A stretch of 64,000 nt of DNA from Siphonodentalium dalli (Eukaryota > Mollusca > Scaphopoda > Gadilida > Siphonodentaliidae): contig CP136064.1 in assembly GCA_032622095.1 (NCBI GenBank), forward strand, positions 129,443,605-129,507,604. Direction: 5' to 3'. The position numbers and the translations under genes were made by a program. The notes under the pieces were generated by a model, which saw only the letters and a program-made list of their open reading frames with translations, was not told the DNA's origin and did no database searches. Shown one piece after another: positions 10,301 through 53,434 of this stretch; positions within the stretch are counted from its first letter, which is position 1, and each line of letters opens with the position of its first letter.

Positions 10301-13300
10301 ACACCTCTCTAAACCGAACAGAAGGGCTGGTCCGAAGGGTGTTCGATTTGGAGAGGTTTTACTGTACCCAATGTTGGTTCCCCATCTGGCACTCATTTTT
10401 TCAGTATGTAGACCAACATGTAGTCTAGGGCCCTGCGAATCGATTCGATTCGATGCGATTCGGAATCGTTTGTCTGATTTGATTCGATTCGAAATCGGCT
10501 ACCATGATTCGGAGTTCATCGAATCTTTGGTGACAGGTGCATTTCCATGATTTCTACGGGCCACAGTGCTCTTACCAGAAAAGAAAATTCACTATAATAA
10601 CATAGTAAACATCTTAAACATACGCACATACCGTTATGTCCGATGGCAGGACATGCAATGTTATTGCCAAATAATTTAATCATACACAGTCATTCCACAG
10701 AATATTATAAAACCACTGGTTGTCACACATTTAGCCATTAAAGTTACTTCTCGATAACCTAAATTTCTTGATTACTTCTGCTATTGATATTACAGCACTC
10801 ATAGCAGCATCGTGCCAAATGACCATGGCTATATACTGCGTGCCTAAAATGTACACGGAAACTATTCAATACTTTTTGCGATATAAAGGGGATTCCGATG
10901 CTGCATACACATTCCTTCAACTAGTATTGCTCTGCCATTACATTTACTGCTCATTACCCATCAGCATTTAGGTGCATAAGTACCTAGAAAAATCAACAAG
11001 ACTCGATCAAGCTAACATTTGCAAAGATATGTAGTTTCAGAAACTTAAAGGACTTATTCGCTCTAGAAACTACAAAACGCAATCGGAAAGCCCTCCCTGT
11101 TGTGATTAAAATGATCCAAGTCCCATTCCGATCGCGTAATAAATAACCCGTAAAATAAATAAATAATACCACCACCGGTATTCGGAGATTTCCGTGACTA
11201 AACTACGAGTGACGTACTTGTGGGGAGCGAATTAAAAACACAGATTCGGAGCCGGAGTTTATTATGCAGACTACGAGGACGTAATCGTAAGTCAGCCGAT
11301 ACTAAAATGCGGAGTCGTATGTGCGCGCGTGTGGTGTATAGATTACGTTACGCTTTGGCCGTTTATCTGGAATAGAAGACAATAACTATGTGAATAAAGT
11401 AATTAATAGCCCCTAGAATGGTTGTTGTTTTTGTAGCCATTAATAATTAACATGCCGGCACGTGTCTGTTTTGATAAATAGATGGCAGTAATTAGTGCTT
11501 TGATTGTCTCGCGTATTCATTCGGTGATTTGTAATCACTCAGTGACTATTCATCAGTGTCAGTCGCGAACTTGTTTGCACTCTAAAATGCCACAAAGTGA
11601 ATAGAAAGAATTCGAACATTATCGCTCTGGTCATACATATATAAGAAGCGCCCAAATTTGTATAAACACTGGGCTGAATAATGTTAACTCTATTTATGCG
11701 CCTTTGTTTTGTGTTTGTTTGTTGTTTTACTTTCGATATAAATATCCCGAGTATCTGTAATCTCCACATATTCCAAGATGGCTAGTAGATGAAGTGTGTT
11801 CAGTTGTGAGCGGGCTAGCGATGCATTATTTAGTACCTCCAAAAAGACAACACAGTGCGTAATTTAGAACGCTCTTTATTGTCTACCGCTTTTGGGAGAC
11901 GGAAGCATGGACGCTCTTTATATTTAATTGTCACAATACAAAATCACCCATGACATATCGAAATAGAGCACGTTCATAATTGAGAACGCTCTTTATTGTC
12001 TACACCGCGACGAAAACATGGACGCTCTTTATTAGAGGCAATCATTGGAGTTTTTCTATGCTAACAATTCAAAAAAATCCTCTCTAGAAAGTCAATGTGT
12101 GACATCAAAACGTAAAATAAAACAAACAACAAACTGAAAAACAATGCCAGGCTAGCCTTCAATTAAAAAAAATGTCGTTATGCCAAACTGAAGCCTAACT
12201 AATAATTATTGTAGTTTCAACAGTCTGTTGTGTATTCGAGTGAATTATTTTGTTTACTCACTTATCGATCTTGACTGGAAGGATTTTAGCAAGCTGTTCA
12301 CAGTCGTGCACTTCTCCACACAAAATGTTTCGTGTGAAGAAACAGACAGGAACATTATTATGACGAATTTAAGCCATCATGATACATGTACTAGTACAAT
12401 AACTACCACCTTTTTAATCACACCCATTTGTATTTAATTGTACGCATATAGCGCACAACTGGATGACACTAATGTGTAAACTAGCTTCCGAAATTGGTAC
12501 CATACAACGAAGAATGAAGTACCGGTATATGGCCTAACTTGTATTCTTTCAGAAACAGTTAAATTAGTTTCGCACGAAATTCCGCTCGCTCATTGCATTT
12601 CTGCATAAATTAATCTCATTTCAAATAACTTTTATCGCATCAAAGTGCATTTTAGCCATCATTATTCGTTATATAATCCACATTCTAGCAAAGCCAGTTC
12701 ATAATTCAGCACATTCAAACAGTTGTATTCCGTGATCGCTATTTATCGTAAAGGCTAAGGTAATTATCCAGCGTAATTTATCAACTCGTTACGCGATTGG
12801 CGGAATTATTTCAAGCTCCAACCACCGCTGTCATCGGTAAGCGTCGATGCAGATGATCGGTCATGTGACCGCGTTGTGGTCATGTGATCGCACTCACTTG
12901 ACTGACTTCGGATATTTCCGCGATTTTTTTAATATCATAATAATATAAATACTTTCTGCTCGATTTTGAATTTTCTTGGCGAAATGGGTCTGTTAGACAT
13001 ATATTATTAGTATTATGACGATAATTTTTTTTTTTGAGAGAGACTAATTCCTTTAACAACTCTTGTCACAGTACATGCAAAATATTTCTGGAACACCTGC
13101 TGTGGCAGTTAATCGATCAGTTGTAGTGTTGAAACGATTAGTGGTTTTGAGGAATCGACTAGTCGCCAGAGGGAATCGACTACTAGTCGACTAGTCGGAC
13201 CCCTTCCGAAACTTACCGTTTTGTGCTCATATACGTATATAATTTGCCGTTTGTTTTGAGTACCAGTAACCAACTTTGCATTTTCGAACGCAACGCAAGA

Positions 13301-16300
13301 CGTGATTTAACACTATTTGCCGTGATTATTTGGCTTAATATCACTGAAGGTTAATAGGTTATTAATTTGTCCCAGGTATATGATGTTTTATGACAATCAA
13401 ATTACCATCCAGTTGATGTATGTATCTAAACGGTGGTGACAACACCTGATCGATCGCGGAAACGCTACGGATTACAGAGTGGAAGCGCGTGCAACAATCA
13501 GAAACCAGTGCGTACAAGCCTTTTATGCTCGCAGATGTCATGTACATATATCGGACACGGAATGTGGTAAAGTTCCCTGTATATATAGAGTCCGCATATA
13601 TTAAAAATGGGCCATGCATTGCGTACATAATGTTGTTCCTTGTATTCAATGCAAGGTCACGATATGACATAGCTTAATCACGGACAGTCATTTTCCCGCC
13701 AAAACGCACGTGTTTTCACTGTTTGATTTGATCGCGTACATAATTGTCTCTCGTGCATGGTACATTGTAAATATATATACAATATATACAATTTTACTCG
13801 CGAGTCCCCGAATACACAATCGATCGTGTCAGTTTCAGAAATAAAACTGCGCAGACCGCCGATGTTAATAGTACATTTCAATGCGATGTCGTAAGTTGTA
13901 TATTTAGCCCGATTCCAGGAATTTGCGTGATCCAGATTACGTTTCTGGGAAAAGCTTTGTCACCGCCCAATTCCGCGAAGGATTTAAGTTTGAGGGGCTA
14001 AAATACATTGTAATTTTTCACAAACACAGTGAACACAGCCCATAAACGACGTGGGATTTCCGAAGTGACTCGCCAGTTTAGTTCGAAATACGTGACGCTA
14101 TTCGATGCATAGCATGGCCGACCGCGGGTTGGCTTTATATTTATATCTATAATACAATATATCTAGAACGTGCGATCGTATACGCTCAGCCATGCGTCAG
14201 TTGATGCATGTGGTGGTTGTAAAAAATATCACACAATTTTACAAATAAACTTTAAAGGTATACTGACATAGTGCTTCAATAAACTATAATATATTGGACT
14301 TCTTATTAAACTTAAAACTTAATAATGTCACCTCGCAACTAAATTGATTGAAGTTGAGTCCTGCACACCTGCAAACACGTTGACCAGTTATCACTCAGAT
14401 CAATTCCGTCATGCCGAAATAGACACGGTTGCGATAGGCGCTGATTCTTTGAAGTTGATTATCAAAGCCGGTAGTCTCGATTTCAAAGAATAAGCCGCCG
14501 CGGCGCCGACAAATACATTGAGTTGAGGTCATTTGGGGTTCGCGCTCGTGCATGACCACCAAGTACTGAAAGCAGTTATCGCATCAAAGAGACAACAAAG
14601 AAGGCTTTAACAGGCTAATTGTGATTGTGTATTTCGATAGCCTGATTGTTTAAATTGTTGAGTTATTCGGCAACGGCACTGCTTTCGCGATGGCATAATG
14701 GCGGTGGGTGTGTTCCGACTATTCGACTAGCGATTTCGGAATCGACTAATTTAATAATCGCGTCGATTTCGATTAGTCGATTAATCGTTTCAACACTAAT
14801 CAGTTGATCAATCTGTGTACACTGTTCACTAGCCAATCAAAAGCGATGCATTCATGACACCACTTGATCACTGGTAATTGATGTTTGATTGACAGCACTC
14901 ATATAAATTTCAACTTTTGTGTGCGTCTTTTTGATGGCAATAATCTCAAAGTGTTACTATTCTGGTGATTATGGTGGTTCTCTTGTGAAATGGCGGATTA
15001 AATTATAAGAAATAACTCTTGTTTCGATTAAGGTTATGAGTTATAACAAGAAAGGTTTGAAGATAAATTTACTATAAAGTATGGTGGCGCTACTCGCGTT
15101 ATAGAATTTATCTTCAAACTTTGTCATGAGTATTTTTGTAAACATTGTCCGGTAAGTCTGTCTGTTCAAGTGACAGACAACACAATCATCGCAAGTGTAC
15201 ATGTAGCGAAAAATACTGCGCTATTCAACAAAATGAAACAGGCATCACGCGGTACGCTTGACCATATTTATGTCGACATTTGTTCTCTCATGCATGTATG
15301 CTCTTTATATCTGTACTCAACAATTGCTTAGCACAGAAAGTTCATAGAGGTGTGTAGACAAACGCATAATCTGCAAATATTGTACTACATCGACGATCGC
15401 CAAGCAATTTTATGTGTTTCTTCGAAGTTCTATGTATTAGAACTTGAATGGCTCAGTAACAATGATTTGATTCGAGATTCGATTCAATTTCGAATCGTTT
15501 GCCTGATTCGATTCGAGATTCGATTCGAAATGAAAACACCCGATTCGCAGGGCCCTAATGTAGTCTGTGTAGAATATTACTGAAACTCCTGGCGGCCCAT
15601 GATGAATTAAGTTATGAAGCTTGATGTAAATCCATGTACATTGTATATATGGTCAACGTTTAAGACAATTCAGAAACTGATCACATTTTATTATTCATTT
15701 CTTTCACTGCTGATGTAAGTGTATCAATGCTCCTAGAACCCATTCCTGATAAAATTAAATGTTGCATGTCGAACAATCTTTTTCACCTCAGAGAATCCTT
15801 GTCTCTAGATAAAAGGCCAGTTTTTTTTAATTTGTTGGTATAGAGATAATTATTTTAAAAGATAAGTTAGGAGGAAGGGAAAAAATGAAATTATGTTTTG
15901 CATTCTTATGTTTTTCATTTCTATAAAAAAATCAGGTATGAAGATAAAACAAATCTTAAAATGAATGTAATACATAAATGTAATACATATCATTTTTAGA
16001 TGTAATGGTGAGTTGAACAAGTATGTAACAGATGTAAAAGAAGGCATTCAGTGGATATGTTTAAATATTAGCAAAGAATGCTAGTGCTGCATTTGGTTAG
16101 AAAGGCCGTTTCTGCCAGGTGAACAAGGTGATATCTGATACAGTGAAACCTCTCTAAACCGAACACCCTTCGGACCGGCCCTTCCGTCCGGATTAGAGAG
16201 GTGTCCGGTTTATAGAAAATCGCGTCACTGTCGGTGATATATTGCCGCCGTTTAATACCAAGAATGACCAAGATTGTATTATTGATTAATGAGAATTTAT

Positions 16301-19300
16301 TGAATAATTACAAGAACGAAATACATGTAAAATACAAACATAACAAATTATATAAAACATATATAGAACATGATTTGTGCAACTAGTCTGACTTTAGAAA
16401 GAAACTGGCGTATTTTTGTCAAAGTCTATAATGCTGTCGATGTCGGTGATGGATAGCTTCTTGGCGATCTCTGATAATGGAATCTCGTCGTCTGGGTCGT
16501 CGTCGGCGTAGAAACTCATCTCTGGAAAGCCACAGTTGTTAAAGCGTTGAGCTGAGATCTTTAATAACTTTGACTTTCTGGTCTAGAGTTAACTCTGTTC
16601 GATGTCGTTTTCGTGAAGGCTCAGTCATTGTGAAAGATTCAAACTGTTATGCTGACTATACGCCAACATCGGGCACTTATAGCAATTTATTGTTTTGACA
16701 ATGGTTGTAAAAACAGAGTCCAATTAACTCGACACAATAACTGTTGCAAAAACAATATGTCAGTGCTCTAATTCTCGATCTGTGACATCACCATTGTTCA
16801 CTCAATGTGTGAAATGAGCGTAGATATCTAATCAGACTCCTGTTCAGACAATCCAGTTCAAAGCATACGCCGAACAAAAGAACGCTAATTAAACGGTCCG
16901 CTTATACTGGAGTACGTAATCGCTATACTCTCGTCTCGTCTCGGAGGCAGAGGTTCCGGTATGTGGAGGTTTTACTGTACTGGTAGGTTAATCCCAATTA
17001 CAATCAGCTATTCTGGCTATCTTTGTTGCTCAATAATTATTATAATTCATAATAATTGTTTTTGCTATATTACCAATTAGAAATAAAAAAAGAGCTGATT
17101 GCAAAAACAAAATTCCCAAAATGTGAAAACTCAAGTCGTGTTATCAGATTGTTGTCAAAGTCCACTACCAAGCTGACAGATCTAATTAGATATGACAGAT
17201 AAAGAGAAAACATGTCCATGTCAGCAATGTTGACATTCGACAATATCAATATCAAACAAGCAGTCGCAGACGGCAGTATCCCCCGCCGAATTGTGCAGTT
17301 GGGGAAGTGCATTCTCAATAATGTTTGCGTTCTCAGTATGTGCTAAACAAGAGGTGGGATTTTGTCAAAAAGCCTGGCTTGCGAACTCATTTTAGGTACT
17401 GGTCATGGGAACGAATAAACCAAAAATCTTTTTAATCCGTTGACATTCGTGGAAATTAGCCCTGTGACGTCGTCCATTTGCACCAAAAAAATATAAACAA
17501 AGTCCAATTACTCTGCTGAAAACATCCGACCGGACCTGGTTTGCGAACTCGTTCTAGATACTGGTCATGTGAACTCATATACCAAACATCTTTTAAATCC
17601 GTTGACATTTGTGGAAATGAGCCCTGTTACAGACGTCGTCCATTTGCACACAAAAAAATTAACAAAGTCCAATAACTCTGCTGAAAATATCTGGGCGGAC
17701 CTGGTTTGCGAACTCGTTCTAGATACTGGTCATGTGAACTCATATAACAAAAATCTTTGAAATCCATTGACATTTGTGGAAATGAGCCCTGGGACGTCGT
17801 CAGACCTGTTAAGTTTTGAAAATGTCAATCCGTGAGATTTTTGCGGGAGGTATGCCCAAATATGTTCATGTTCCAAAAATAATTTTTATGATGAAGATTG
17901 CATAATTTTTATGAGTTTCTATTTTATAAATATATAGACCTAAATAAAATGGCAATGAATGTCCTGTTGGTAATTGTAATAGAGCTGCTCTGTGTGGGAG
18001 ATGCCACCATTTATTAAAAAGAAAGAAGCAGATCACACTTCGTAAAAATACTCAGAATTCCACCGGAAACAGCCGGATATGCGTGAAACCGAAAGTACAA
18101 CATCGTAATAAACGACAAAATGGACTCGTCTTACGGTTTACCCCACAAAAGAAATGCACACATTCCACCATTTATTAAAATTTTTTAAGAAGCAGAAACT
18201 TTGTTTAAAGTTAGTCAAAACGAATCCGAGTTACACAGGTGACAACAAGACATGTATGCGTGAAACCGAAAGTACAAAATGACCCGTCTTAAAAGTTTTA
18301 CCCGCAAAATAAAAGACACATTCCGTTCTCAATGCATACCACTATCAGTGAACTTAAATCATAAAGTATCCATTACTTATGTTCATCAATGAGGCCTCAC
18401 AATACAGCTGCACACTTGTGATTAAACGTATTGTTTTATTTCGTTTGCAATGCATGCCACTAATCCGTTACTAAGAAATGTTCATCAATGAGGCCTAACA
18501 ATACAGAACTTTGCACACTTGTGATTATACGTATTGTTTACTAAAACAACACCCTCCATACGTGTGGCTTCACCAGAGTGTGAAAATCAATTAATATCAG
18601 TCACAGTTCACCACAAATTGAGTCTTCAATCAAAAGTTACCGACGATACATTCTGTGAATGTTAATGTGTGGGTATTTACGGTACCGGAAATAAGGAAGT
18701 CATTTGGGGAATTCCCGCAAATGCACGAATTTAAAAAATAAAAAAAACTTCGTTTTGGGATTTTCAATGTGGGGTTTTGACGAATCCGTGAGAAATTGGG
18801 GGTTATCCGTGTTTGCGGAATTGCCGTGGAAATCCGTGAGTCTCACGGACAATCCGTGGAACTTAACAGCTCTGGACGTCGTCTATTTGCTATTTGGTAA
18901 ATTCGACAAAAATAATAAACAAAGTCCAATAACTCCGGTAAAAATATCTGGCCAGACCTGGCTTGCGAACTCATTCTAGGTAGTGATGAGCCGATAATCG
19001 GGAACGACAATCGGAATCGGCCGATTGTGGCCCATCGGATGACAATCGGTACTCGGGTTTGAACATCGGGATTTCCGATTGTCTAAATAATAAATAGGTG
19101 CTTGTTTTTCTTCAATAAACTGTTTTAAATATGACGGTGTTTTGTTGAATACATGACCTGTAAACACTGGGAAAGTGATTCCAAACACAAACTTGATATA
19201 CAGACATGTCCTCTTCAATACCCCGGCCGTACCTGGGTCTATGTTTGAACAATACATTAGTGGGGATCAGTGGGAAGCACGTGACACTTTGTGTTAGAGT

Positions 19301-22102
19301 GAGGCTCCAAGCATGATGCCGTGATTACGCATAATCATTAATTATTGGCATACCGGAACAGTCGTTTCAGTCGATTGATTTCGTTAGTATTATGATATAC
19401 ACAACGTACATATCATGGGACTCATGTACGCCCATAGGTAACTTTATTGTTCGTCAACATGTAGACATTTTGATTTATGTCAGACTATCAAAAATCAAGA
19501 TGTATGCATACGGAGTACAACAGAACTATCTATATAGTACATATATACAGCGTAACAGGTATAAACTATACTATAGAAACCGAAAGTGCATGTCTCGTGA
19601 CTTTAAATACTAAGTCAAAGACAATGTCATTTCATCCAGTCAGCCTCATGTGACGTCACGTATAGTCACCACCAATGATTATTATGATGACCACGCTGAA
19701 ATCGAATCGTGTCTGTGAAATTGACATGAACATGGTGTAACTTGCAACTAGTTCAGTCGGCTCATTTCCTTTGATGTGATGTCTTTGAATTGGGATCAAA
19801 GAAAAATTCCGTTTGATGAATTGTTATTAAAAATGAACCGTGGACATGTCGTCATGCACGTGGCTACATCAAACTTTCAAACAATTTGTTGTGGAATAGC
19901 TTAAAATACATGGGTATGTTGCCTGTATTCGATCACAAGTCCGCCCATGCCCACCTATATACTTACCCAAACATATGTATACTGTGTGCTGGCATATTAC
20001 TTTGTTTGTTGCTTGCTGCTAATTCTAAGTATTAAATAACACATATAACATATTCTGCTATAATTATTGAAATAATCGGAATCGGCACCTGAATCGGCCG
20101 ATTGTGATCTCAAATAATCGGCAATCGGCGCAAGGCTCTATTTGACAATCGGCTCATCACTAATTCTAGGTAATGGTCAGGTGAACTCATATTCCAAATA
20201 TCTTTGAAATCCGTTGAGATTTGTGGAAATGAGCCCTGGGACGTCGTCTATTTGCTATTTTCGTAAATTCGACAAAAATAATAAACAAAGTCCAATAACT
20301 CCGGTAAAAATATCTGGCCAGACCTGGCTTGCGAACTCATTCTAGGTAATGGACAGGTGAACTCATATACCACAAATCTTTGAAATCTATTTACATTTGT
20401 TCAAGTTATGACTCTTACAAATTCGGGACGGACGGAACCCATTACTATATCCCCCGCAAATTTTAAATTTGGCGGGGGATAAATATGTTGATTCAGTTAA
20501 ATCCATACCTAGTGATTATTTCTAAGAAGCTTGTGATGTTGTCCTCATTATCAATCTGTATAACAGGTCCGCTGAAGCGTTGTCCCACATCAAGCTACGA
20601 TATAACCAGTATTTATTAATATATAAGAACATTGAATCAACTCAGATGAAAAAGATTGCTTTAGAGGTTACATGCACCTCACAACACCCAGATATTAGTA
20701 ACTTAATAGTAAGGAATAACAGGTCCCAGACAAAATTAGTCTTTAAATTATAGTACCTAATTATATAAGACATTTGCTATTTGACATTGGTGCTAAAATG
20801 CCTACTGTTACTAATCCGATAGTCATTCAATGCTTAAATTAAAGAATAATATATTTGTAATGAACATAATGATCATCAGGAATGACTGCTGATATTTAAG
20901 TAACACACAGAAATTCACAAAAGAAGGCCAAGTTCTGATTCCGAGTGACAACACGTTTGGCTGTTATCAGTCATTTTGATCTCGAGCCATCATGACCGTT
21001 TACAGCCACTATGACAGTGATAGTGTTATAGAATACCTTTGATAGAGCATACCTCTTTGAGAAGTTTCTGATTTAGAGACAGTATTATAATTGCAGATGC
21101 ACCAAAAAGAAAGGCTTCCTTCACCTGAAATGTATAATGCATTAATCAAGTAACTGAAATTAACACTGGAATCCTCTAGAGAAGATATGTTCACATGTCA
21201 CATGTTCTATTTTATACGGATATATAAATTTAATAGGATTGATACTAGTCTTGGTGTACTGTATCTTTTTGGGATTATCTTCAGCCATATTAATTTGACA
21301 TATAGTAATGCCCTAAATAATCGACTCCTTGACCACAGCGGAATTATGGGTAATTTTTCAGGATTTAGTCAGAAATATGGCTTGTTGCCATTCATCGAAA
21401 AGTTCTCACTGAGAGCTTTCCGATGAATGGCAACAAGCCATATTTCCAACTAGATCCTGAAAAATTACCCATAATTCTGCTGTGGTTAAGGAGTCGATTA
21501 TTTAGGGCATTACTGTAGTTGTGATTAAATTTCTGTATATGTATGACATGCTTCATTGCTTCTTCCAGACTCTCAATTGAATAGGACAACTGACATGAAA
21601 TTTAGTTAGGCAACTTTATAGGTATTTGGAATTTTGGAATAGATGTATTGGTCCACATACGTTTTTTGTCCAATGGATTATTAATTGACTAAGGTACTGT
21701 AAGGTATATGATTAATCATGTGATCGCCCTTGTACAGAAGTGTCAACAGGGTGTAACAAATTTCCAAGTGCTGTTATTTTGATAGCAAGAGCAATGTTCA
21801 CTAAGGACTTTTACTTATTGAAGCGCAATACGAAAATTTATTTACCTTACCTTGTCAATGACATTAGAACAATTCTTCAAAGTGCTGTCTTCACAAGATG
21901 TTCCACCGCCACTATCAAAATAGATGACACCAATCCAGTCTTTTGATAGCTTGGTAAATCTGGTGTCATCGCTGTCTTCCAATAACTGAAAAATTATTAA
22001 TAAAATAGTCAGCAAATATATATATATATATATCTTTAATTCCTCCATATAAATGAAGATATGATATACACATACAAGAACAGATCGGCCGGGCACACGA
22101 AC

Positions 22103-28200: not shown

Positions 28201-31200
28201 CCCGATGAAAATCTCCCCCGTTCCTAGGAAGCCCTAAGAACGTAAGAATCACACAACACGCTCATGTCTGGATACAGTCACGCTCACGTGTGGACCAAGA
28301 CGCAAGAATCACATTACACGCATATGCTCTTTATCAACGGCACTGCGGATACGAACGCTCATTAACTATCAACGCGATTAACCCCACAGTGCCGAGGACG
28401 GTCATTTTTGTGACTGGGAGTGGAGAATGGGTGCTGAGAGCTTCTCCAAAACGCTGCAATGGAGCATCCCGTGGTTTTTTAACCTTAGACAGGAAGTTTG
28501 GTCTCAATCGGTGCAGCCGTTTTCGATTCTATAAAGTATATACACACATATTTACACACATACGTAGTTCTCAAAATATATAGTAGACTAGATCTCTGCG
28601 ATGGAGATTCAAATTCTTGGGGGTAGGGATGCTGATAATATGAAAATAGGTTTTTTTCCCATTTGAAGACAATAAACTTTGTACACCATATGAAGGAAGC
28701 AAGCCCCCCAGTAACCTCTAATTCCCTTTGTATGGCCATGGAAATTGTATACATGTATATCTGTGCAGGAAATGTCCCTTTAATCTTGAACTCTGTGAGT
28801 GAGGCACCAATTCTTGGGACACCAGGGGCAGAGATGCTGATATATTGCATATGGAATTAAGTTTTTTCTTCAACTTTCGAGTCTGTATGGGGTTACTACT
28901 ATGAGATGGACTCAATCATTCACAATTGGAGGGAAGTAAGGGAGTGTTAGGTATTTGCGCTTAAGCTAAAATTAGTTACGCTTAAGCTCAAATGATTTGC
29001 ACTTAAGCGCAAATAAATTGTTAGACACATATTTGTACTCAAGTGAAAATGATTTGTGCTTAAGAGCAAATTATTTACACTTAATCGGAAATATTTGCAC
29101 TTAAGCGCAAATAAACAATAAATGTGACAAGGCCTCCCATATATCCATGCATTGGTACAATTTTAATAGACCATCAACATAAATGATATATGCCACAAAA
29201 TAACAATTTCAACATGAACATGTCGATTTTAGGTACAGTAATGCCCTAAATAATCAACTCCTTAACCACAGCAGAATTATGGGTAAATTTTCAGGATTCA
29301 GGATTCACTGAGAGCTTTCAAATGAATGGCAACAATCCATATTTCGAATATAATTCTGCTGTGGTTAAGGGGTTGATTACTTAGGGCATTACTGTACTTA
29401 TATCAATGACGGGATGTCTACAAACAATTTGTGTGTATGTTTATGACACAGGAATGTCCATTTAGTATAGAAATCAATCAATATTAGAGCGTTTGTGCTA
29501 TTTTTATTAGAAGAAAAGCTACCTTTATTGGATAAAGTACAACACATAAACAATTAAATTTTCTCATAATCCAGGCACATACGGTACACACTATAGGCAC
29601 ACGTACTGCCATACATGTATAGACATCACCCAAGAGATGTCATTCAAAAGAAGATCTCTATGCCAGTTTCAAAACAACTGCAGATCATCATCGATTCCAG
29701 TGGAGTGTCTGTGACCAATTATATGACAATGCGGAAAGAATCTGGAATCAATTATGATCTGCAGTTGTTTTGAAACTGGCATAGAGATCTTCTTTTGAAC
29801 AAATCTCTTGGGTGATGACTACCAGTGAAGTGATAAATGGAGTTCTCAGTTGATTTTGAAATGTGCATGAAGATCGAGTTCAACATTTCATGGAATGGCC
29901 CAGTAGTGATTACAGAACACAGTATCACAACAACAAATCAGTGAGAAAAAATCAAGATGCGTTATGTTGTGACCTGTGTGATCAATGGATTCACCTCCGC
30001 TGCTCTAAATTACTAAAAACAGATTTCATGAAGCTAGCTAATGATGATAGCCCATGGTTTTGCTACCATTGTAATGAGACGTTATTTCCATTTAATCACA
30101 TGGAGGAAGAGGCACTGTTTCGACTGGCATTATTTGACATGAAACAAGAATATGCTCACACAAATTCAAATAAATCATTTTTAATGAACCCATTCACTCT
30201 AAATGATGACTTCCGTGAAGAACATCAAATGGATGATGATGACTACAATTTAAACCCAGTAAATCCTGAAAACTCCTCTAATTATACCCTCCTTGATGAA
30301 TTTAACGATAAATTGAAAATAATAAACCAAAATGTGTCATCATCAATGATACACTTCAACATACGTTCACTATTAAAATATATGGACAAGTTATCCACTT
30401 TCCTGTATACCTGTAAACACAGATTTGATCTAATAGGCGTTACTGAAACTTGGCTCAAGGATGAATCTCCTGTGGATCTAACCAAAATGGGAAGCTATAG
30501 CTTATATGAGAAACATAGGAGTGATAGAGGTGGGGGTGGAGTTGGACTTTATGTACATGAAAGCATTGAAGCACAGGTACGATCAGACTTGTCTTTGTTC
30601 AGTGAGAACTTTGAGAGCTTATTTATTGAAATTCCTGACAAAAACAAAAAAAACAAAAAACAAGTAGTAGGATGTATATATCGAAGCCCAAATTCTAATG
30701 TCGATGACTTTCTTGAAAAACTTGAAACAGTATTAACCAAGATACATAAAGAGAAAAAAGATTGTTTCCTAATGGGAGACTTTAATATAAACATAAATAC
30801 TAATAACACCAGCGGAAACAACTTCCTTAACTTACTAAAGTCATTTATGTTCTTGCCATCAATAACGAAACCCACTAGAATAACTGAGTTCAGTGCAACA
30901 CTTATTGACAACATATTCTCCAACTGTCTCCTCTCCTCATCTATCAATGCTGGTATATTCGTGGAAGACATTACAGACCACATGCCTATCTATCTCCTTT
31001 TGAGCAATGGAACTAAAACAATGAATAAGAAAGACGTATTTATATGGCAAAGAGACTATTCAAAAAGAAACAAAGAAAATTTTATAACCGAAATATCCAA
31101 AATTGACTGGACTATGGTGTTAGACAACCAGGATTGCAACAAAGCCTACAATTCTTTCCACGAAACATTAACAAACATTTACAATAACAATTTTCCAAAC

Positions 31201-34200
31201 ATCAGAAAGAAAATCAAACCTTCTAATCATTGCAATCCATGGATAACAGCAGGTATACTGAATTCCATTAGAAGAAAGAATAAACTATATAAAATATTCA
31301 TTAAGAACAGAACATACTATAATAATGATCGATACAAGAAGTATAGGAATAGACTAAATTCAATTATCCGTACTGCTAAACAACACATAGGAAATTCCAA
31401 CAATATGAAGGTAATATCAACAAAGAGGAAATTGCTACCAAATTCAATGAATTCTTCGCCAATATTGGACCAACCCTTGCTTCAAAAATTAAATCTAACA
31501 AGAATCCAGCAGATTACCTTATATAATCAACCTAAGTGTTCTTCATTCTTTATCCAACCAACAGATGAACTTGAAGTCATAGAAATTCTCAAAAATATCA
31601 GTGCAAAAAAGGCTGCCGGTATTGATGATCTCAAGTGTTCAATATTGAAACATTGGAGCGAATTTATTATTAAACCCATTACACATATATGCAATCTTTC
31701 TCTTGCTAATGGAATATTTCCAGACCTCATGAAGATAGCAAAAGTTGTACCTATTTTCAAAGCTAAAGACCCAACCACATTAAGTAACTACAGGCCAGTC
31801 TCTGTGCTACCTGTATTTTCCAAAATCCTAGAAAAAATGATGTACAACCGACTGAACGGGTAGGGTTCTCTATTCCGAAGGTTCGCTATTCCGAAGGTTC
31901 ACTAATCCGAAGGTTCACTAATCCGAAGGTTCACCAATCCGAAGGTTCACTATTCCGAAGGTTCGCTATTCCGAAGGTTTTCTATTATGGGAGTTTTTAG
32001 CCAGAAATGAATCAAAATTTGCGCCCCCGTACATTTATACACCCCAATCTAATATCTAATTTGTCCCGGATGTCGGTTATTAATAGCAAGAAGACAGTAT
32101 CAGTTTATCATTTTAATATTATAGAAAGTTGAAAACACAATGACTGAAATAAACAACGAGTTAGAGATGCATTCTACCCGAACTGGCAATCTGTACTTGA
32201 AAGAAACATCAACATTAAAATCAATACAAAGTCAGAATTGCAGTTAGGTCCATTCAGCGGTATTCTGCTATACAGTAAGTTATAGCGCTCCAGTATTGAT
32301 TGACCGTAAGAGCCCCACTGTTATAGTCCGCCTTTAGCATTTGGGACATTATATTAATCAAAATAACTCCTATGTAAATCATTTATAAATCAGATGATAT
32401 ATTGAAGTTATATAGACGTAAAATAACTAAAATATGTCGTTTAGTCCTCAGCCGATAGACGACATATATGTCGTTCTACTCGCCAAAGGGTTAAATCTCA
32501 AGGAAACCCACGAAAACAAAAATCACATTTATTTTTTTAATGTTTTAAGTTATTTCCTTCATAAGAGTCTTCGTACTAAAGAACCCTCTCAATATACTTT
32601 AGAATATAGAATTAACTTTTAAAATAACAAAAACCTTCGGAATAGCAAACCTTCGGAATAGTGAACCTTCGGAATAGTGAACCTTCGGATAAGTGAACCT
32701 TCGGATTAGTGAACCTTCGGAATAGCGAACCTTCGGAATAGAGACATGTTCCCGACTGAACAAATACCTAACCAAATACAATATTCTATATAGAAGTCAA
32801 TATGGCTTCAGAAAGAATCACTCAACTATTCTGGCACTAACTGATCTCTTAGAGAAAATTACCCAAGCCCTAGATAATAGAGAACACACCATTGGGGTAT
32901 TCCTTGATCTATCAAAGGCATTTGATACAATAAATCATAATATAATGCAAAATAAACTTGAAAACTATGGATGTCGTGGGGTTGCACTGAACTGGTTCCA
33001 AAGCTATTTGACTAATAGCAAACAATCTGTACAATATGAAGGCCACTTGTCTTCACAAACAGATATAATATGTGGAGTTCCACAAGGATCTATACTTGGC
33101 CCTCTACTCTTTCTGATATATATGAACGAACTTCCAAATATTTGTAAGGACCTGAATCTAATACTATTTGCTGATGATACAAATGCATTTTACTCTAATA
33201 AAGATATAAATAAGGCATATGATATAGTCAACAAAGAAATGGAGACAATGAGCAAATGGTTTCTTGCTAATAAACTATCTCTAAACCTAGTAAAAACTTA
33301 ATTATTACATGATATTTACGAATACAGATCTATGCAAAAAAATAACTGTCCTACCCGAGCTCAAGATCAATGAAAATCTATACAAAGAGTTAAAAACACT
33401 AAATTCCTAGGAATTAATATTGAAGAAAATTTATCATGGAATATGCAAGTGGAATCTATTACTAAAAAACTGTCAAAAAATTTAGGAGAGTCATGAGAAA
33501 AATCAGTGACTTCATACCCAGAGATACAATGAAAACAATCTATTCTGTACTGATTATCCCACATCTCACATATTGTAATGCCATATGGAGTGCAACAACA
33601 AAGAAAAACCTTGAAAATCTTATAAAGATACAAAACAAAGCTATCGCCACACTATCTTACAAATAAAAGGTCAGCAGACCACAGTGTCCCCCGACAACAT
33701 GGCAAGTCGATGCCGCTTTGTTAAAGAAATTAAAAAAAATTGTTGAAATTTTCTAAGTCGAAAAGGGTTAATAACTCCATAAAAAAAATATTAGCTATAT
33801 AGATGTTGCAAATCACGAACATTTTAGGAACAATATCCCAGAGTTTCAAATCTCTACATTTAAAACTGTAGGAGGAGTTGATTACACCATGAAGGTACCC
33901 AATCTCATCCAAAAGGCAAAAATGTTCCAAATTTTCTAAGTCAAAACCCCCCAGAAAATATGGAAAAAAGGATATTTTTTATTAGCTATATAGATGTTGC
34001 AAATCACCAACATGTTAGGAACAATATCCCAGAGTTTAAAATCTCTACATTTAAAACTGTAGGAGGAGTTGATTACACCATGAAGGTACCCAATCTCATC
34101 CAAAAGGCAAAAATGTTCCATATTTTCTAAGTCGAAAAACCCCCCGAAAATATGGAAAAAATGATATTTTTTATTAGCTATATAGATGTTGCAAATCACC

Positions 34201-37200
34201 AACATGTTAGGAACAATATCCCAGAGTTTTAAATCTCTACATTTAAAACTGTAGGAGGAGTTGATTACACCATGAAGATACCCAATCTCATCCAAAAGAG
34301 GGTCATTTCTATAGTCCTCCAACGGAAACGTCGGGGGACAAAAAAAGCATACCAGAAATATGCAGGGACCACAATTTGCTAACATTGATGAATGACATTG
34401 GAAACATGCAACTAATACAAATTTTACATGATTTCCATCAAAAGAAACTCCCCAAATCGCTGTCTTCAATATTTACTAATATACATGATATCCATAACCT
34501 GACAATACACGGTTCAAAGTAAATTCAAATCTGTATTGTGAATTCAGAAGAACAAAAAAAGCAAGAAGTGTCATATCAACCAGAGCCAGATGTCTATGGA
34601 ATGAACTCCCATGTGATTGTAAGCTTCGCGTAGAAACTAGTGACAAATATCATAAGTACCTAAAATCACATTTCATTAATAAATACACCCCAAATATCAA
34701 ATAACAATCCAGTTTGTATGTATTCTCTCCCCTATTATATATACTAAGGCAATACCAGCCAGCAGTCCCTTACAGCAGAGACTGTCCAGAAGAGGGGGCA
34801 GAAATTAATGAACTTCTCTTTATTCTCATAGTAATATAATCCTCCCTCTCCTGGCTAGCTCTCCCGGTGAGGAACAGGCCAACCAAATTTATACCACATT
34901 TCCTCCATGTGTTACTATTTGTCACTCATCTGAACAACAGTGCAAAAATAATCAACTTGTCTATAACCTTAACCAATTCCTCAACCAAATCAAGCAGTAT
35001 TCACACCCATATTTCAATGATCACCTTAAATACTAGCTGGTATTCCCCACATTATTGAAAATTGCAAGACGATCGCGCAGGTCTCAGCATAAAGACATCA
35101 AGATAATCATATTGGCTACCAGATAAAGCATAACAAAAAAAAATAATGACTATAATCACCATCTCACAACCCGACCCCCCCCCACCCCATGCCCCCACCC
35201 CTTCTTGCCCATGCATCTCTATACAATAATACACACATTGTAAATACGCACCCGCACTATATAAATACGTACACATAACACTGTATCATTATAATATAAG
35301 CATAAGGGCCCTGCCCTTGCAAGTTAAACTTTTTGTGGGGTCCTGTTGATATATATATATTATAATTATATTGAATACGAAATAAATCTTATTGAATCTT
35401 GAATGTATATATAGCTGAAGGGGTCATTGCATGTCGCCACATTTTGGGGTGTTAATTTGGTAGACCTACGGGCCCATGATACAACTTATGAAAAGGTATT
35501 TTGGGTATGGTACCCATACTAGTACAGCTTGACTTTTGTTGCGTTTTCAGCCCACACGATACCCAATTCTTGCATCTGATCACATACAGGTACGGTACAT
35601 GATCGATGCATGGGTACCCTTACCGAAATCACAAGCCCTCGGTAAGCATTCAGGAAGGATTTGAATGCTTACAAATGAAGACTTAAATGAATCCTTATCT
35701 CAATCAATGCAATGGGCCAGTTACAGGAAAAATAAGCACTCGAAACAGAATTTAGCCCTCAATAGGGCCGACTTATTTAAATGAGCTAAGTACTCCCATA
35801 AGCACTCGAAGGCTTATTATGCCTTCGAGGGTTTAGCTCATTTAAATAAGTCGGCCCTATAGAAGGCTTGTTGGTTCCCGTAAGCACTCGAAGGCTAAAT
35901 AAGACTTCATAATTTGCATATAAGGCTTCGAAGGCTTATATTTAAGGCTTCGAAGCCTTATATGCAAATGATGAAGGCTTAAATGAAGCCTTACGAACCA
36001 TGTCTCGAATGCTTAAATTGGTCCCCGAATGCTAAAGATTATGGTGAAATGATGGCCTGTTTTCATAGAGTTACCTATACTGCATGGAAATGAGGGATAA
36101 CTCTATGCAGGATGCATGGGAATATGGGTGGTGTCATCAAAATTGGCTAGAAATAACAAAACAATTATGAAGTGATAACAATTTTATATTAGTGAAATGA
36201 ACAATTTTGAGTATATATGTATATATCAAGAATTTATGTTAGCTGTCACTATCATGTCCATGTTTAATGCAATTTGATTTCTGTACTCTCAGGCTCCGTG
36301 TAGGTCACCCCTTAAGCTAATAAATTGTTTAGGATATATGTCAATTCCACTGGCGATGCATGTAGTCTCAGTCTTCTTTTCTGGGAGTCGTTTTCAAATT
36401 CTGAAATGAGAAATAGTAAACAAATTTTAAATTATGTTTACATCAGAAATAACTGAAATGATATTATTTGTTTCAGAAAATGAGTTATGTGAATGATACA
36501 GTTGTTTGTAAATATATCAAAATTGTATTGGACTGAATATTAATATTTTTAGCTAGCATTGAACTAGTAAAATGCCCAAAAAATGATATAGGTGATGTTT
36601 TTTGTGGATTTAACATCTGATAAACCAACCTTTGAGTGATACTCAGTTTATGATATCAAAATGCAGGCATATCCAAAATTGAGATTAGATAGCTGATTAG
36701 ATATTCTAAATGTGTGCATTAACTGGAAGGAAATGGTTCAAATAATAAGAAAATAAGATATCCAATTTATAATATAATGCTAGTTTTACAATTCTAATAA
36801 CTTACTTTTTGCATTAATGCCCTTTGCTGTCATTTTCTTGTTAAATAGGAAATCATTGGACCATGCAGCGATATGGTCTCATATAGGTTCCTATATCAAT
36901 ATTGCTCCTATAGGATATACATCCAACATGGCGGCGTGTCCCGTATCCAATCACGTGATTAAGAACGCTCTATATTACTAGTTTTGGAACCCATTGGCTC
37001 CCCTGCATTTAAATTACCAATTAGGTTCAAACAAGACGTGTATAATGTACTTGTTCAATATGCCAACATTATCTTCCTCTGAAATTGATGTTATCATGCA
37101 TATACTAATAATTAATTAATTATGAATAATAAATAGATTATGTACACTGAAAATTCATAAAACACCAGAAGTCCACACAACCTTTTTAGTATTTACCCAA

Positions 37201-46559: not shown

Positions 46560-47425
46560 CTCAGTGACCGCACAACTTGGCCACTTCGTCCAGGAACTCT
46601 ATACTTCGTCTATTTCACCTGCCAAGTACACTCTTGAAATGCCGTCTTGAATTTTCCAAGGCACGATACTTTCTTTTCTGTGGGTTCACTTTGCCGCCCG
46701 CACTTATCTGTAATATTTTACATCATATGTCGGTGAAATGTTGATTCCTAATTCTGCTGATTTTTGCTTGAGAAGACCCAAGAATCTGATGTATGTTTGT
46801 TGCGTCTTGTTCGGCAGGAGTCCATAAACCAGGGGAACCATTATACTGTCGAGGAATGCGTGGACTGAATATATTTGAAGAAACATGTTGGGAGATTTCT
46901 CGAATGTACCATCGGCGTAGAAACGATCAGCATCGGCAAGGAACCTAAGGTTGCTGTCTGTTGCGAAGATCAATATCTTGTCACTTCCACCATTGGATGC
47001 AAGAAGGAAGTTTTCGTTCGCGGTTGTCATGGTATATTGCTCAGGCAAGTTGATATCGGCACGGGCTTTCGGAAGAACTGGTGTGGTTTTGGAACGAGAA
47101 CGGTATAGCGATGATTTCATACTGTAAAACGTTGGCACTTTGCTGATCAACATTGGGTCGGTTTCGTCGGTTCTAAGCGAAGTCAGCTCTTCTGGGTATA
47201 GATTGATGAAACTGTTTTACAAGCATTCCGCACTGTCGATTTCAGGTTTGATACAAACATGTCCACAGAAACTTGATCAAAATCCGTTATATGGTTATGA
47301 GGAGTTCCCGCTGACGAAACAATGTCATTCTTTGTATTAATAGTAGCACTACAAGTCTTTACACAACAAACCCAATGAATATTTTCCACACGCCGATATC
47401 TGACTCTTTATTTGTTGCCGTTGTA
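46560..47425 (-). pseudogene. Degenerate MULE transposase with FLYWCH-type domain
   Basis: Minus strand. The N-terminal zinc finger reads RYRRVENIHWVCCVKTCSAT, then SAGTPHNHITD (47389-47185). A one-base frameshift near 47180 leads to PEELTSLRTDETDPML and the MULE domain: FYADGTFEKSPNMFLQIYS and VHAFLDSIMVPLVYGLLPNK (47153-46704). These match the (M/A)DGTF...(L)Y..H....PL.Y.LLPNK signature of Mutator-like transposases; the D of ADGTF is the first catalytic residue. Stop at 46704-46706, then a remnant of the C-terminus (GGKVNPQKRKYRA), so most of the DDE core and helical region is deleted. Confidence 0.82.
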
Positions 47426-47536: not shown

Positions 47537-50170
47537 ATTCATGGTGAACATTAGTTAGTGTTATTTACATATGCGCGAAAAACAAGTGACAACAGTATAA
47601 ACACGTTTAAGGTGGCCTGGACACAACATTACATATTATCTGTGAACATTAGTTACATATGCGCGAAAAACAAGTGACAACGGTTACCGTGGCCTTAGTA
47701 TAAACAAGTTGGCCTGAACACAACGCTTAACTTGGATCGGCCTAATTGCCAGCGTTGTAACAACACAACCGATCGCACCTTGAGTTAATCCCCTGCCGCA
47801 TGTCTGCAAACTGAGACTAACCCGTCAAAGTATACCACATTAATTACTAATTTAATAAGAACAAAATATCGGTAAGCTCATCCCACTGCCAACCAATGGA
47901 GCTTTCCACAGAGGCCACACCCACAGCGGTAGTCCCACCCACTGGTAAAAATACTTTTATCCACATAAATATTGTCTGTTACCCGAGATCGACAACCGAA
48001 GTGAACACATCAGCACTTGCCCTTATGTTAACTAGCTGAAACAGACTCATGTATATGATTCGTTCAAATTTGATCTTTTAACCATTTGATTTAAAAAAAA
48101 TTATTTAGATTCAATTTTTTTTTTAGATTGAACTTTGATCTGCTGTTGAACAAAAACTAAATATTTTGTTTAATTAAAATTTTTAAATAATGTTTTTTTT
48201 ATTTTATTTTTAGATTTTTAGATTGAATCTTAAATTTTTTTTTTAATTTTGTAATTTAAATTTTGTTTTACTTAATTAAATTTTGTTTTTATTTAATTTT
48301 AAAATTTTATTTTTAGATTTTTAGATTGAAACTTCTTGCTAAAAAATATAAAATTTGAAGAAAAAACAATTTTTTTTTTTTTTATTTGTTTCAAAAATTT
48401 AATTTAAAATATAAGTTCGTTATAACATCTGCCGTTGTACCCCGAGGCACCACACCAAATTTGGTTAAAATCGATCAAGGGCTCTGGAAGAAAAATTGCA
48501 TACAGAACAGACAGATCACTGACCAGATCTAAACCAGAGAACATACATTCGTTTTGCCATTAAATGTGAAAATTATGACAAGTGTCATGCTAAACGAAAA
48601 ACATTGTTATAATCACGGATAAATTTATAACATCATGCCGCAAATATAAATCTCAGTATATTATGATTTGACAACAAAAAAGTTGTTTGAATATAGCCAA
48701 TTTAACACTGAATGTATGCATGGATATCAAAATTAGGGTGAAGAAAGATGGCGTCGAAAAAAATCTCCGCAGCCAGCGGCCGGCTCGGTATCTGATTGGT
48801 CGAATATATTCTAATAAATTGCCTTTGGGCGGGACTACGCTGTGGGCGTGGCCTCTGTGGAAAGCTCCATTAAAGCAGAGAATAAAATCTCACAAACAAA
48901 TCCTGGATGATTGACAGGTGTATGTCGACGCAATAGCATGCACGGGATCGATTGTTTCCGGGGGTACCTGCACGAGGTGTCAATAATCACGTACTTCAAT
49001 CATTTGCCGCTTATAGTCTATTCCTCTTTTCTGTTGGTGTTTCTATGGTTTGTCCTCTCTTTTTGTAGGTTTTTAATGATTTGTCAATTTGGGAACGAGG
49101 GTTTTGGAACCTTTGGTGCTGATTCAATGTTGATGTCAGGAAATAATCTATGTCATGTTTTATTTATTTATTGATGCAAAATAATTAATAAAATACATAC
49201 AAGGAGATAACAAACATATAACAAATACATGACAATACTTTAACAAAAAGCTCAATGGCGAACTAATTTAGCGATTGAATCTAAGTATTCTACAACGTCG
49301 ATCTCGTTTTCCCTGAATATTCGCTTGAATTGTCTAAGAGACGCGTTGACAGCCCGATATTTTCTTCTCTGTGGTTGAACTTTGCCGCCACCAGTCAGTT
49401 GAAGTATCGTCGATTCTGTATAGGCTTGTTCTTTTTTTATGTGGTCGATCATGTCGAATATATTTGGTTTTGAAGCTGCTATATAACCTTGAAGTTTTCT
49501 GTGCCACCATTCGACGTGGTACGGCCTTCGCCACCTTCAATCAACTGCATAGTCACATAATCGGAAAACTTTGTCAAGAAAATGGATGTGTCGTACCTGG
49601 TCAGAATCGGCTAGATGGTTGTGTTGACTCATTGAAGAACTAACTATCTCGTTCTTTGTGTTGATGGTGGCACCACAGCCATTCTTAAAACACACCCAGT
49701 GTACATTCTCGGATCGACGTCATTTGATGCGGAATTTGAAGTCGTTGAAGACCAGGTGTTTGCCTCGATCGTTGGCGATGAAGAATACATTTACTTGAGA
49801 ACTTGCCATGACGAAGATAGAACATTGAATATGATCAACATTGTAGAGACATGGGGGGTTTTTATAGCTCAGTACGATCGCTCAATACGAATAACAGTTT
49901 ACTACTATTTCACTGAGTGAACATGAAAATCGCTCATCTGATGACGACTCATGTGAAACTCGTTTAGCGGCATGCTAAAACAACATTGCAAACGGGAGCC
50001 GGGAAAACTGTTATTTAATTAATACAGACTATAGGCTCGACGATCACACCTTTAAAAATCTGCGTTATCGTGGAAACAGTGGGGTTAAATATAAATGTGA
50101 TTCGTCATAATGACCGCAAAGTCGATATTATGTACGGATTTAAATTTCCTTTAATTAAAAATACTAACCT
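47537..50170. repeat. MULE-derived tandem unit A (2.6 kb)
   Basis: Starts attcatggtgaacattagtt and ends directly where unit B begins with the same words (50171). Nearly identical to B over its length but lacking about 95 bp present in B (between cgatcacacctt and aaaatctgcg). Includes an AT-rich stretch (48085-48415), an inverted pair ggagctttccacagaggcca (47896) / tggcctctgtggaaagctcc (48850), and a deleted MULE transposase on the minus strand. Confidence 0.9.
49252..49809 (-). pseudogene. Deleted MULE transposase in unit A
   Basis: Minus strand from ATG at 49809: MASSQVNVFFIANDRGKH, FNDFKFRIK, then a stop (TGA) where unit C has Ser, followed by ENVHWVCFKNGCGATINTK, SQHNHLADSDQV (FLYWCH-like finger). 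After a frame break: RRPYHVEWWHRKLQGYI, PNIFDMIDHIKKEQAYTEST, GGGKVQPQRRKYRAVN, ending VVEYLDSIAKLVRH at 49252. The central DDE domain is missing. Confidence 0.85.
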
Positions 50171-51890
50171 ATTCATGGTGAACATTAGTTAGTGTTATTT
50201 ACATATGCGCGAAAAACAAGTGACAACAGTATAAACACGTTTAAGGTGGCCTGGACACAACATTACATATTATCTGTGAACATTAGTTACATATGCGCGA
50301 AAAACAAGTGACAACGGTTACCGTGGCCTTAGTATAAACAAGTTGGCCTGAACACAACGCTTAACTTGGATCGGCCTAATTGCCAGCGTTGTAACAACAC
50401 AACCGATCGCACCTTGAGTTAATCCCCTGCCGCATGTCTGCAAACTGAGACTAACCCGTCAAAGTATACCACATTAATTACTAATTTAATAAGAACAAAA
50501 TATCGGTAAGCTCATCCCACTGCCAACCAATGGAGCTTTCCACAGAGGCCACATCCACAGCGGTAGTCCCACCCACTGGTAAAAATACTTTTATCCACAT
50601 AAATATTGTCTGTTACCCGAGATCGACAACCGAAGTGAACACATCAGCACTTGCCCTTATGTTAACTAGCTGAAACAGACTAATGTATATGATTCGTTCA
50701 AATTTGATCTTTTAACCAGTTTGATTTAAAAAAAATTATTTAGATTCAATTTTTTTTTTAGATTGAACTTTGATCTGCTGTTGAACAAAAACAAAATATT
50801 TTGTTTAATTAAAATTTTTAAATAATGTTTTTTTTATTTTATTTTTAGATTTTTAGATTGAATCTTAAATTTGTTTTTTAATTTTGTAATTTAAATTTTG
50901 TTTTACTTAATTAAATTTTGTTTTTATTTAATTTTAAAATTTTATTTTTAGATGTTTAGATTGAAACTTCTTGCTAAAAAATATAAAATTTGAAGAAAAA
51001 ACAATTAATTTTTTTTTTATTTGTTTCAAAAATTTAATTTAAAATATAAGTTCGTTATAACATCTGCCGTTGTACCCCGAGGCACCACACCAAATTTGGT
51101 TAAAATCGATCAAGGGCTCTGGAAGAAAAATTGCATACAGAACAGACAGACAGATCACTGACCAGATCTAAACCAGAGAACATACATTCGTTTTGCTATT
51201 AAATGTGAAAATTATGACAAGTGTCATGCTAAACGAAAAACATTGTTATAATCACGGATAAATTTATAACATCATGCCGCAAATATAAATCTCAGTATAT
51301 TATGATTTGACAACAAAAAAGTTGTTTGAATATAGCCAATTTAACACTGAATGTATGCATGGATATCAAAATTAGGGTGAAGAAAGATGGCGTCGAAAAA
51401 AATCTCCGCAGCCAGCGGCCGGCTCGGCATCTGATTGGTCGAATATATTCTAATAAATTGCCTTTGGGCGGGACTACGCTGTGGGCGTGGCCTCTGTGGA
51501 AAGCTCCATTAAAGCAGAGAATAAAATCTCACAAACAAATCCTGGATGATTGACAGGTGTATGTCGACGCAATAGCATGCACGGGATCGATTGTTTCCGG
51601 GGGTACCTGCACGAGGTGTCAATAATCACGTACTTCAATCATTTGCCGCTTATAGTCTATTCCTCTTTTCTGTTGGTGTTTCTATGGTTTGTCCTCTCTT
51701 TTTGTAGGTTTTTAATGATTTGTCAATTTGGGAACGAGGGTTTTGGAACCTTTGGTGCTGATTCAATGTTGATGTCAGGAAATAATCTATGTCATGTTTT
51801 ATTTATTTATTGATGCAAAATAATTAATAAAATACATACAAGGAGATAACAAACATATAACAAATACATGACAATACTTTAACAAAAAGC

Positions 51891-52448
51891 TCAATGGCGA
51901 ACTAATTTAGCGATTGAATCTAAGTATTCTACAACGTCGATCTCGTTTTCCCTGAATATTCTCTTGAAATGTCTAAGAGACGCGTTGACCGCCCGATATT
52001 TTCTTCTCTGTGGTTGAACTTTGCCGCCACCAGTCAGTTGAAGTATCGTCGATTCTGTATAGGCTTGTTCTTTTTTTATGTGGTCGATCATGTCGAATAT
52101 ATTTGGTTTTGAAGCTGCTATATAACCTTGAAGTTTTCTGTGCCACCATTCGACGTGGTACGGCCTTCGCCACCTTCAATCAACTGCATAGTCACATAAT
52201 CGGAAAACTTTGTCAAGAAAATGGATGTGTCGTACCTGGTCAGAATCGGCTAGATGGTTGTGTTGACTCATTGAAGAACTAACTATCTCGTTCTTTGTGT
52301 TGATGGTGGCACCACAGCCATTCTTAAAACACACCCAGTGTACATTCTCGGATCGACGTCATTTGATGCGGAATTTGAAGTCGTTGAAGACCAGGTGTTT
52401 GCCTCGATCGTTGGCGATGAAGAATACATTTACTTGAGAACTTGCCAT
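51891..52448 (-). pseudogene. Deleted MULE transposase in unit B
   Basis: Same layout as unit A: FLYWCH-like N-terminus from ATG at 52448, the same TGA in FRIK(stop)RRS, a frame break, then the C-terminal half ending LDSIAKLVRH at 51891. It shares ASLRHFKRIF with unit C, where A has ASLRQFKRIF. Confidence 0.85.
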
Positions 52449-53206
52449 GACGAAGATAGAACATTGAATATGATCAACTTTGTAGAGACATGGGGGGTTT
52501 TATAGCTCAGTACGATCGCTCAATACGAATAACAGTTTACTACTATTTCACTGAGTGAACATGAAAATCGCTCATCTGATGACGACTCATGTGAAACTCG
52601 TTTAGCGGCATGCTAAAACAACATTGCAAACGGGAGCCGGGAAAACTGTTATTTAATTAATACAGACTATAGGCTCGACGATCACACCTTGCCGGCGATA
52701 TTTTTGCAGGCTCGTCGGCAAAGTGAGAATAAGCCCGATGCATGACTATGTTTTTATATTTGACAACAAAGTTCCATTAAAATCTGCGTTATCGTGGAAA
52801 CAGTGGGGTTAAATATAAATGTGATTCGTCATAATGACCGCAAAGTCGATATTATGTACGGATTTAAATTTCCTTTAATTAAAAATACTAACCTTCGTAT
52901 ATTTCTACTATAAAATACTTGTTTTAAACTCGAAAAAAAGACGACACAAACCAGAAATATGTACTTGCAGTTCGGCCGCGGTGCTCAACTGCAGTTATCC
53001 CTGCATGGGTTAATTTGGGGAAACACTTAGAAGCCATTCTTTTCCCCATTCATGTCAAAACAATATAGCCAGTTGTTTACACAGTAACCAGTCAGCTAAT
53101 CACACTTCAGAGGGTGAGATGGCATCAGCCCAGAACATGTGATGCGCTTCAGTGCGACGACTGCCTTCAGTGTGGACAATAATCACTTTCAGGTGCCAAC
53201 TTTTTT

Positions 53207-53434
53207 ATGTGTCATTGGTACGAAGTGTCCAGCATCTGCAGCCTCTGCGATTATGTCCAACGGCAATGGTTGGGTTCCACCACCTTTGTAATCGAAGAGT
53301 GGAGCAATTTCAGACATGAGCAATCTGCCTACCGACAACCCTTTCTCTTAGAGAGAGAAAGGGAGAGGAGATTTGCATTCAGATTTGCTCAAATGAGGTC
53401 ATCAGGTCAAATGGTTGTGAATCCAGTTCCATAA
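53207..53434 (+). pseudogene. MULE-like C-terminal fragment in the B extension
   Basis: ORF with CDYVQRQWLGSTTFVIEEWS, NFRHEQSAYRQPF. The spacing Y...W(L/I)G....F.IE.W resembles the Mutator-like region just before the VEGWH motif. It is on the opposite strand to the other MULE remnants. An identical copy is at 57246-57473. No start or upstream domain is convincing. Confidence 0.4.

Follow-up and report, generated by a model that had tools for sequence, protein, structure and literature searches.

What interrupts the reverse transcriptase of a non-LTR retrotransposon in this stretch of the Siphonodentalium dalli genome, and to which class of mobile DNA does it belong? The window, by which we mean the whole stretch of 64,000 nucleotides that was analysed (GC content 37%), carries within that reverse transcriptase (RT) an insertion of 895 bp whose two ends are built from a short tandem unit in opposite orientations. 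The locus is made up of the following features.

29860 to 31857, plus strand: 5′ part of the interrupted non-LTR retrotransposon, with a PHD-like finger, an endonuclease domain and the start of the RT
31849 to 31857, plus strand: left copy of the target-site duplication, CGACTGAAC, from the sequence and a comparison of the flanks
31858 to 31867, plus strand: left tip, GGGTAGGGTT, which lies beyond the repeated units and differs from the right tip
31868 to 31979, plus strand: left array of seven 16-bp units, consensus CACTATTCCGAAGGTT
31980 to 32631, no strand: internal region of 652 bp
32632 to 32743, minus strand: right array of seven inverted 16-bp units, with the variants in the same order as in the left array
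32744 to 32752, minus strand: right tip, GGAACATGT when read inward
32753 to 32761, plus strand: right copy of the target-site duplication, CGACTGAAC, from the sequence and a comparison of the flanks
32762 to 33298, plus strand: 3′ part of the same RT up to its first stop, matching RVT_1 at an E value of about 1e-28

The paired-array insertion is confirmed as described. The arms formed by the two arrays are 96.5% identical over 115 nt, and a search of the window for ATTCCGAAGGTT with at most 2 mismatches returned 16 occurrences, 14 of which lie inside the two arrays; across 100 shuffles the mean was 5.58 and the maximum 12, so that none reached 16. Folded as single-stranded DNA the element is far more stable than its shuffled versions (z = -21; none of 20 shuffles equally stable). 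The foldback-like structure put forward in the original prediction is thus borne out, and its estimate of seven to eight units per array narrows to seven. Outside the arrays the two tips are unlike each other.

No stop-to-stop frame of at least 90 codons was found in the element, and second copies of the internal 652 bp and of the whole element were sought within the window and were not found there. Rfam at gathering scores and tRNA scans over the window likewise returned nothing. The internal region does include a palindrome of 16 bp, ACGACATATATGTCGT, at 32459-32474. Long reads are known to produce foldback artefacts (PMC12870357), and an inverted duplication derived from such a read, or another error of sequencing or assembly, might give paired arms of this kind. 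We regard this explanation as very unlikely here, for the 652 bp between the arms occur a single time in the window, the arms differ from each other at 4 of 115 positions, and the whole is flanked by a direct repeat; a foldback read would be expected to yield neither the arm differences and unique interior nor the flanking repeat.

That direct repeat is the 9-bp CGACTGAAC, found immediately outside both ends of the element, as had been predicted. The match between the flanks extends to 10 bp, CCGACTGAAC, and an alternative reading gives an 8-bp duplication, with GGG then standing at both tips. Agreement of this length is rare by chance: among 2000 random pairs of 26-nt stretches drawn from the window, an exact common word of at least 9 was present in 3 draws and one of at least 10 in 2 draws.

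The flanks themselves belong to a recognizable gene. Upstream of the insertion the retrotransposon encodes an endonuclease domain (E 1.3e-9) and a PHD-like finger, which at 23 bits falls just under the Pfam cut-off of 24, and RT domains are found in both flanks. Joined in a script, the flanks form an uninterrupted run of 845 codons whose junction reads MMYNRLNKYLTKYN; the RT frame terminates at a further stop after 33298. With the element left in place, the RT frame meets a stop at the second codon of the element, and the 895 bp of the insertion together with the 9 bp of the duplication are not a multiple of three. The RT of this retrotransposon is broken by the foldback insertion.

To what extent the joined frame is exact was judged by searching the two RT halves separately against solved structures and comparing the distance between the halves with that in each chain. 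The left half matched eight sequences, five of LINE-1 ORF2 and three of R2, and the right half matched all eight as well. On all five L1 ORF2p chains the halves meet within one residue. For example, in 8sxt_A residue 149 of the left half falls at chain position 551 and residue 27 of the right half at 577, which is 25 query residues against 26 chain residues; the query distance is 25 because the right piece begins with RLN, which the duplication encodes. On all three R2 sequences, by comparison, the halves were 4-5 residues off (31 vs 26, 31 vs 26 and 34 vs 30), and on the Pfam RVT_1 profile the discrepancy at the junction amounts to 8 positions, with a weak match for the left half (E 0.03, below the cut-off). 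The right half matches L1 weakly (E 0.0084 to 0.098) and is most similar to group II intron RTs. Taken over all of the register checks, these alignments support what would be a simple insertion into the RT, with the most precise agreement on L1. Exact restoration of the RT frame, as originally claimed, agrees with the stop-free joined frame and, to within one residue, with the L1 chains; the fit to the R2 chains and the RVT_1 profile is less clean. The same claim had been presented as an empty-site proof of mobility, which is too strong: we infer the empty site from the joined flanks rather than from an observed empty allele, and it speaks for a past insertion and not for present mobility.

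Two further features lie in or beside the same retrotransposon. Just upstream of its open reading frame lies an inverted repeat of 81 bp, 92.6% identical, at 29620-29700 and 29742-29821. A second probable insertion into the retrotransposon, recognized by eye, occupies 33685-34341. It has inverted ends TGTCCCCCGAC and encloses 2.7 copies of a 192-bp unit, and visual inspection showed no clear duplication of its target.

The units of the foldback element vary in a restricted manner. Positions 7-16 (TCCGAAGGTT) and position 3 are invariant throughout the 14 units, and deviations fall at positions 1, 2, 4, 5 and 6; since the units of a tandem array are related by descent, however, this constancy of the core reflects a small number of independent changes. 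Each unit thus looks like a 10-bp putative binding core joined to a variable linker, as in Muta1. The order of the unit variants is equal in both arms, as far as the variants can be distinguished: when the variant order of the right arm was compared with that of the left, none of the 5040 possible orders scored above the real one, and 24 tied, the real one included. Because the variant order is the same in both arms, the comparison favours copying of whole arms over separate growth of each array. Such copying may have proceeded by gene conversion, or by a switch of template through the hairpin. That the arms agree unit by unit bears on a general question about foldback elements, namely whether their arms are copied whole or their arrays grow independently.

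Each arm by itself is an ordinary tandem repeat, and one might accordingly suppose that two minisatellites expanded by chance in opposite orientation at one locus, with no transposition at all. This we hold to be extremely improbable, given that both arms agree in unit, in unit number and in variant order, that a direct repeat stands outside both tips, and that the RT is continuous across the junction on the L1 chains.

An insertion by transposition is the preferred reading, and the remaining question is the kind of transposon. The locus shows two features of the foldback class, long inverted arms made of short tandem units and a target-site duplication at an insertion into recognizable sequence. 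Target-site duplications of the Mutator superfamily are 8-11 bp long (MULE phylogeny, PMC6446971), and the 9-bp duplication here, like the 10-bp match of the flanks, falls in that range. We conclude that the insertion is probably a foldback-type DNA transposon that moves by cut and paste and is not autonomous. It most likely belongs to the Mutator (MULE) superfamily, close to the Phantom/Muta group, although the superfamily assignment draws on duplication length and anatomy because the element contains no transposase and has no second copy in the window. In this scheme a MULE transposase encoded at another locus would bind the 16-bp units in trans and cut at the tips, and the element would then enter a staggered 9-bp break, with duplication of CGACTGAAC as the outcome.

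Alternatively, the element could be a foldback transposon from a different superfamily, P/Galileo-like or hAT-like, whose long arms evolved independently. Indeed, foldback structure has arisen in other superfamilies too, since Galileo combines foldback arms with a P-type transposase (PMC3688188). An 8-bp reading of the duplication, moreover, would place GGG at each tip, and the same window contains three other inverted-repeat elements with 8-bp duplications. These came from scanning the window for elements that combine inverted and direct repeats. Of the five rows obtained, those at 1390, 13124 and 18981 were kept, those at 27009 and 33953 were dropped since they lie inside tandem repeats, and the foldback element is omitted by the scan because its duplication lies beyond the scan's search range. 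The element at 1390-2563 has ends CAGGGATGTGGCTAGAGGG and the duplication GTTGGATA, and two TAGTG-ended elements occupy 13124-14798 (ends TAGTGTTGAAACGATTA, duplication ATCAGTTG) and 18981-20162 (ends TAGTGATGAGCCGAT, duplication ATTCTAGG). We take all three to be hAT-like. The hAT superfamily is marked by an 8-bp duplication and by tips of the CA/TAGNG type, whereas the foldback tips read GGGTAGG and GGAACAT and, unlike the three elements with 8-bp duplications, begin with neither CAGGG nor TAGTG. The simplest reading of the direct repeat is also 9-10 bp, and Tm1 and Muta are both laid out as tandem units of 12-16 bp beside a short tip. On balance we consider an origin in another superfamily unlikely. 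Elsewhere in the window, at 5331-6338, lies a satellite-like 29-bp array in two blocks, with the unit ACCCAATACGTTATTCAACCCCGATGATT.

The assignment of the element to a MULE group raises the matter of a partner that could supply the transposase. On the minus strand, 14-24 kb from the foldback element, the window contains broken FLYWCH and MULE-like pieces at 46707-47407 and 49255-56538. A FLYWCH domain was matched at 56218-56538 with an E value of 1.2e-6 and at 49540-49719 with 0.096. The MULE match at 46707-47000 (E 0.12) is below threshold, with 13.3 bits where the cut-off is 27.6, the whole open reading frame at 46707-47216 gave no MULE match at all, and the MULE-like frame had no relatives in the viral contig collection and none in the PDB. 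A role for these pieces (46.7-56.5 kb) as the autonomous partner is not supported, as the window search with ATTCCGAAGGTT placed none of the array units in their vicinity and 44-60 kb yielded no report of an inverted repeat of at least 40 bp. They suggest that Phantom-type genes occur in this genome, and we draw from them no inference that such genes serve the foldback element. Much of the region at 48-57 kb occurs three times in direct orientation, at spacings of about 2639 and 4039 bp; many segments of these copies are 97-100% alike, and one is only 72% alike.

Searches for the array elsewhere were made in collections of viral and prokaryotic contigs, where the array patterns had no matches; since these collections consist of viruses and prokaryotes, this result says little about an animal genome. 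Among 72,556 plasmid records there were two matches, both from Neisseria (76 nt at 81.6%, E 3e-6), which we set aside as a likeness between short repeats. A literature search with four 10-mers of the unit gave no transposon title among the matches listed.

The element had first been likened to the FB elements of Drosophila, and it does resemble them in its long repetitive inverted arms, in a duplication in the range of their 9-10 bp and in being non-autonomous, but the arms of FB4 are about 700 bp long as against about 122 bp here (in part from a study of animal Pack-TIRs, PMC8277862). Galileo, a Drosophila element of the P superfamily, similarly has long, internally repetitive arms, yet it differs in its P-type THAP transposase and in arms of 0.5-1.2 kb; its THAP domain binds several sites in these arms, and its authors describe as untested the idea that the repeats of Foldback and Phantom elements are binding sites (PMC3688188). 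The foldback-type structure shared with FB thus stands, while the closest anatomy that we found in the open-licence literature is that of Muta1 and Tm1 rather than that of FB itself.

The original prediction had also called this structure rarely reported in other phyla, which is wrong, because the same anatomy has been published for Muta1, for Tm1 and for the elements listed in the Tetris paper. The Tetris paper lists sea urchin elements among foldback elements and names further examples from Chironomus (a midge), rye and Arabidopsis (PMC4079207). The sea urchin elements are presumably the TU elements, which the present element resembles, by description, in its long inverted repeats. The plan is common to, or classed with, elements of mosquitoes (Muta), nematodes (Tm1), sea urchin, Chironomus, rye and Arabidopsis. 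The element is thus a well-preserved member of the foldback class, of a kind already known. It is a clean case whose empty site can be inferred, and otherwise ordinary genome content.

Muta1 of Aedes aegypti is named a type 2 Foldback element and has been found to transpose in yeast; its TIRs of 145 bp consist of a terminal motif followed by nine 12-bp repeats with spacers of 3-4 bp, its duplications are 8-9 bp, and more than 300 putative non-autonomous derivatives are described, mostly with variable internal DNA (PMC5225508). Indeed, subterminal tandem repeats of 9-15 bp occur in 10 of 12 long-TIR MULE families of Aedes (PMC5225508). The element here follows the same plan, with a short tip, subterminal repeats in 16-bp steps, against steps of 15-16 bp in Muta1, and a duplication of similar length. 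Unlike Muta1, which encodes a transposase, it has none. The Muta1 tip is, furthermore, a 10-bp imperfect palindrome with positions 5-6 unpaired (PMC5225508), and in the present element none of the five pairs is formed at the left tip and two of five at the right.

In Tm1 of root-knot nematodes the 7-bp tips that lie beyond the inverted repeat differ from each other, and the tandem units measure 13-15 bp; 45 of 53 elements have duplications of 8-10 bp, with 9 bp the commonest length. The family comprises MITE-like copies and a putatively autonomous copy that encodes FLYWCH and MULE domains, and its arms vary in size through the number of units (PMC3169594). The element described here likewise has unlike short tips outside the inverted repeat (GGGTAGGGTT vs GGAACATGT), tandem units of similar length (16 bp) and a 9-bp duplication, and differs in its equal arms of seven and seven units. 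By eye, Tm1 motif B (GGA), motif D (GGGAAAAGGGGA) and the Tm1 unit (CGATTCAGTATCCGC) have no counterparts in the corresponding places. The left tip, GGGTAGG, is however the reverse complement of Tm1 motif A2 (CCTACCC), if the orientation of A2 is as the text of that paper implies. The chance of GGGTAGG at a fixed position is about 2e-5 from base composition, a post hoc figure for a comparison that allowed two motifs, two ends and a flexible duplication length, and on both strands of the window the motif occurs 5 times against 2.7 expected. We treat this resemblance as a lead. It is a speculative and rather doubtful idea that the GGGTAGG tip and the array plan common to Tm1 mark one ancient or horizontally spread lineage of Phantom MULE foldback elements, in which a constant asymmetric tip would be kept together with a lineage-specific array of binding sites and the arms would be copied as whole blocks. 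If the link to the Tm1 tip were true, it would provide a way to recognize foldback MULEs even when their arrays are unrelated in sequence.
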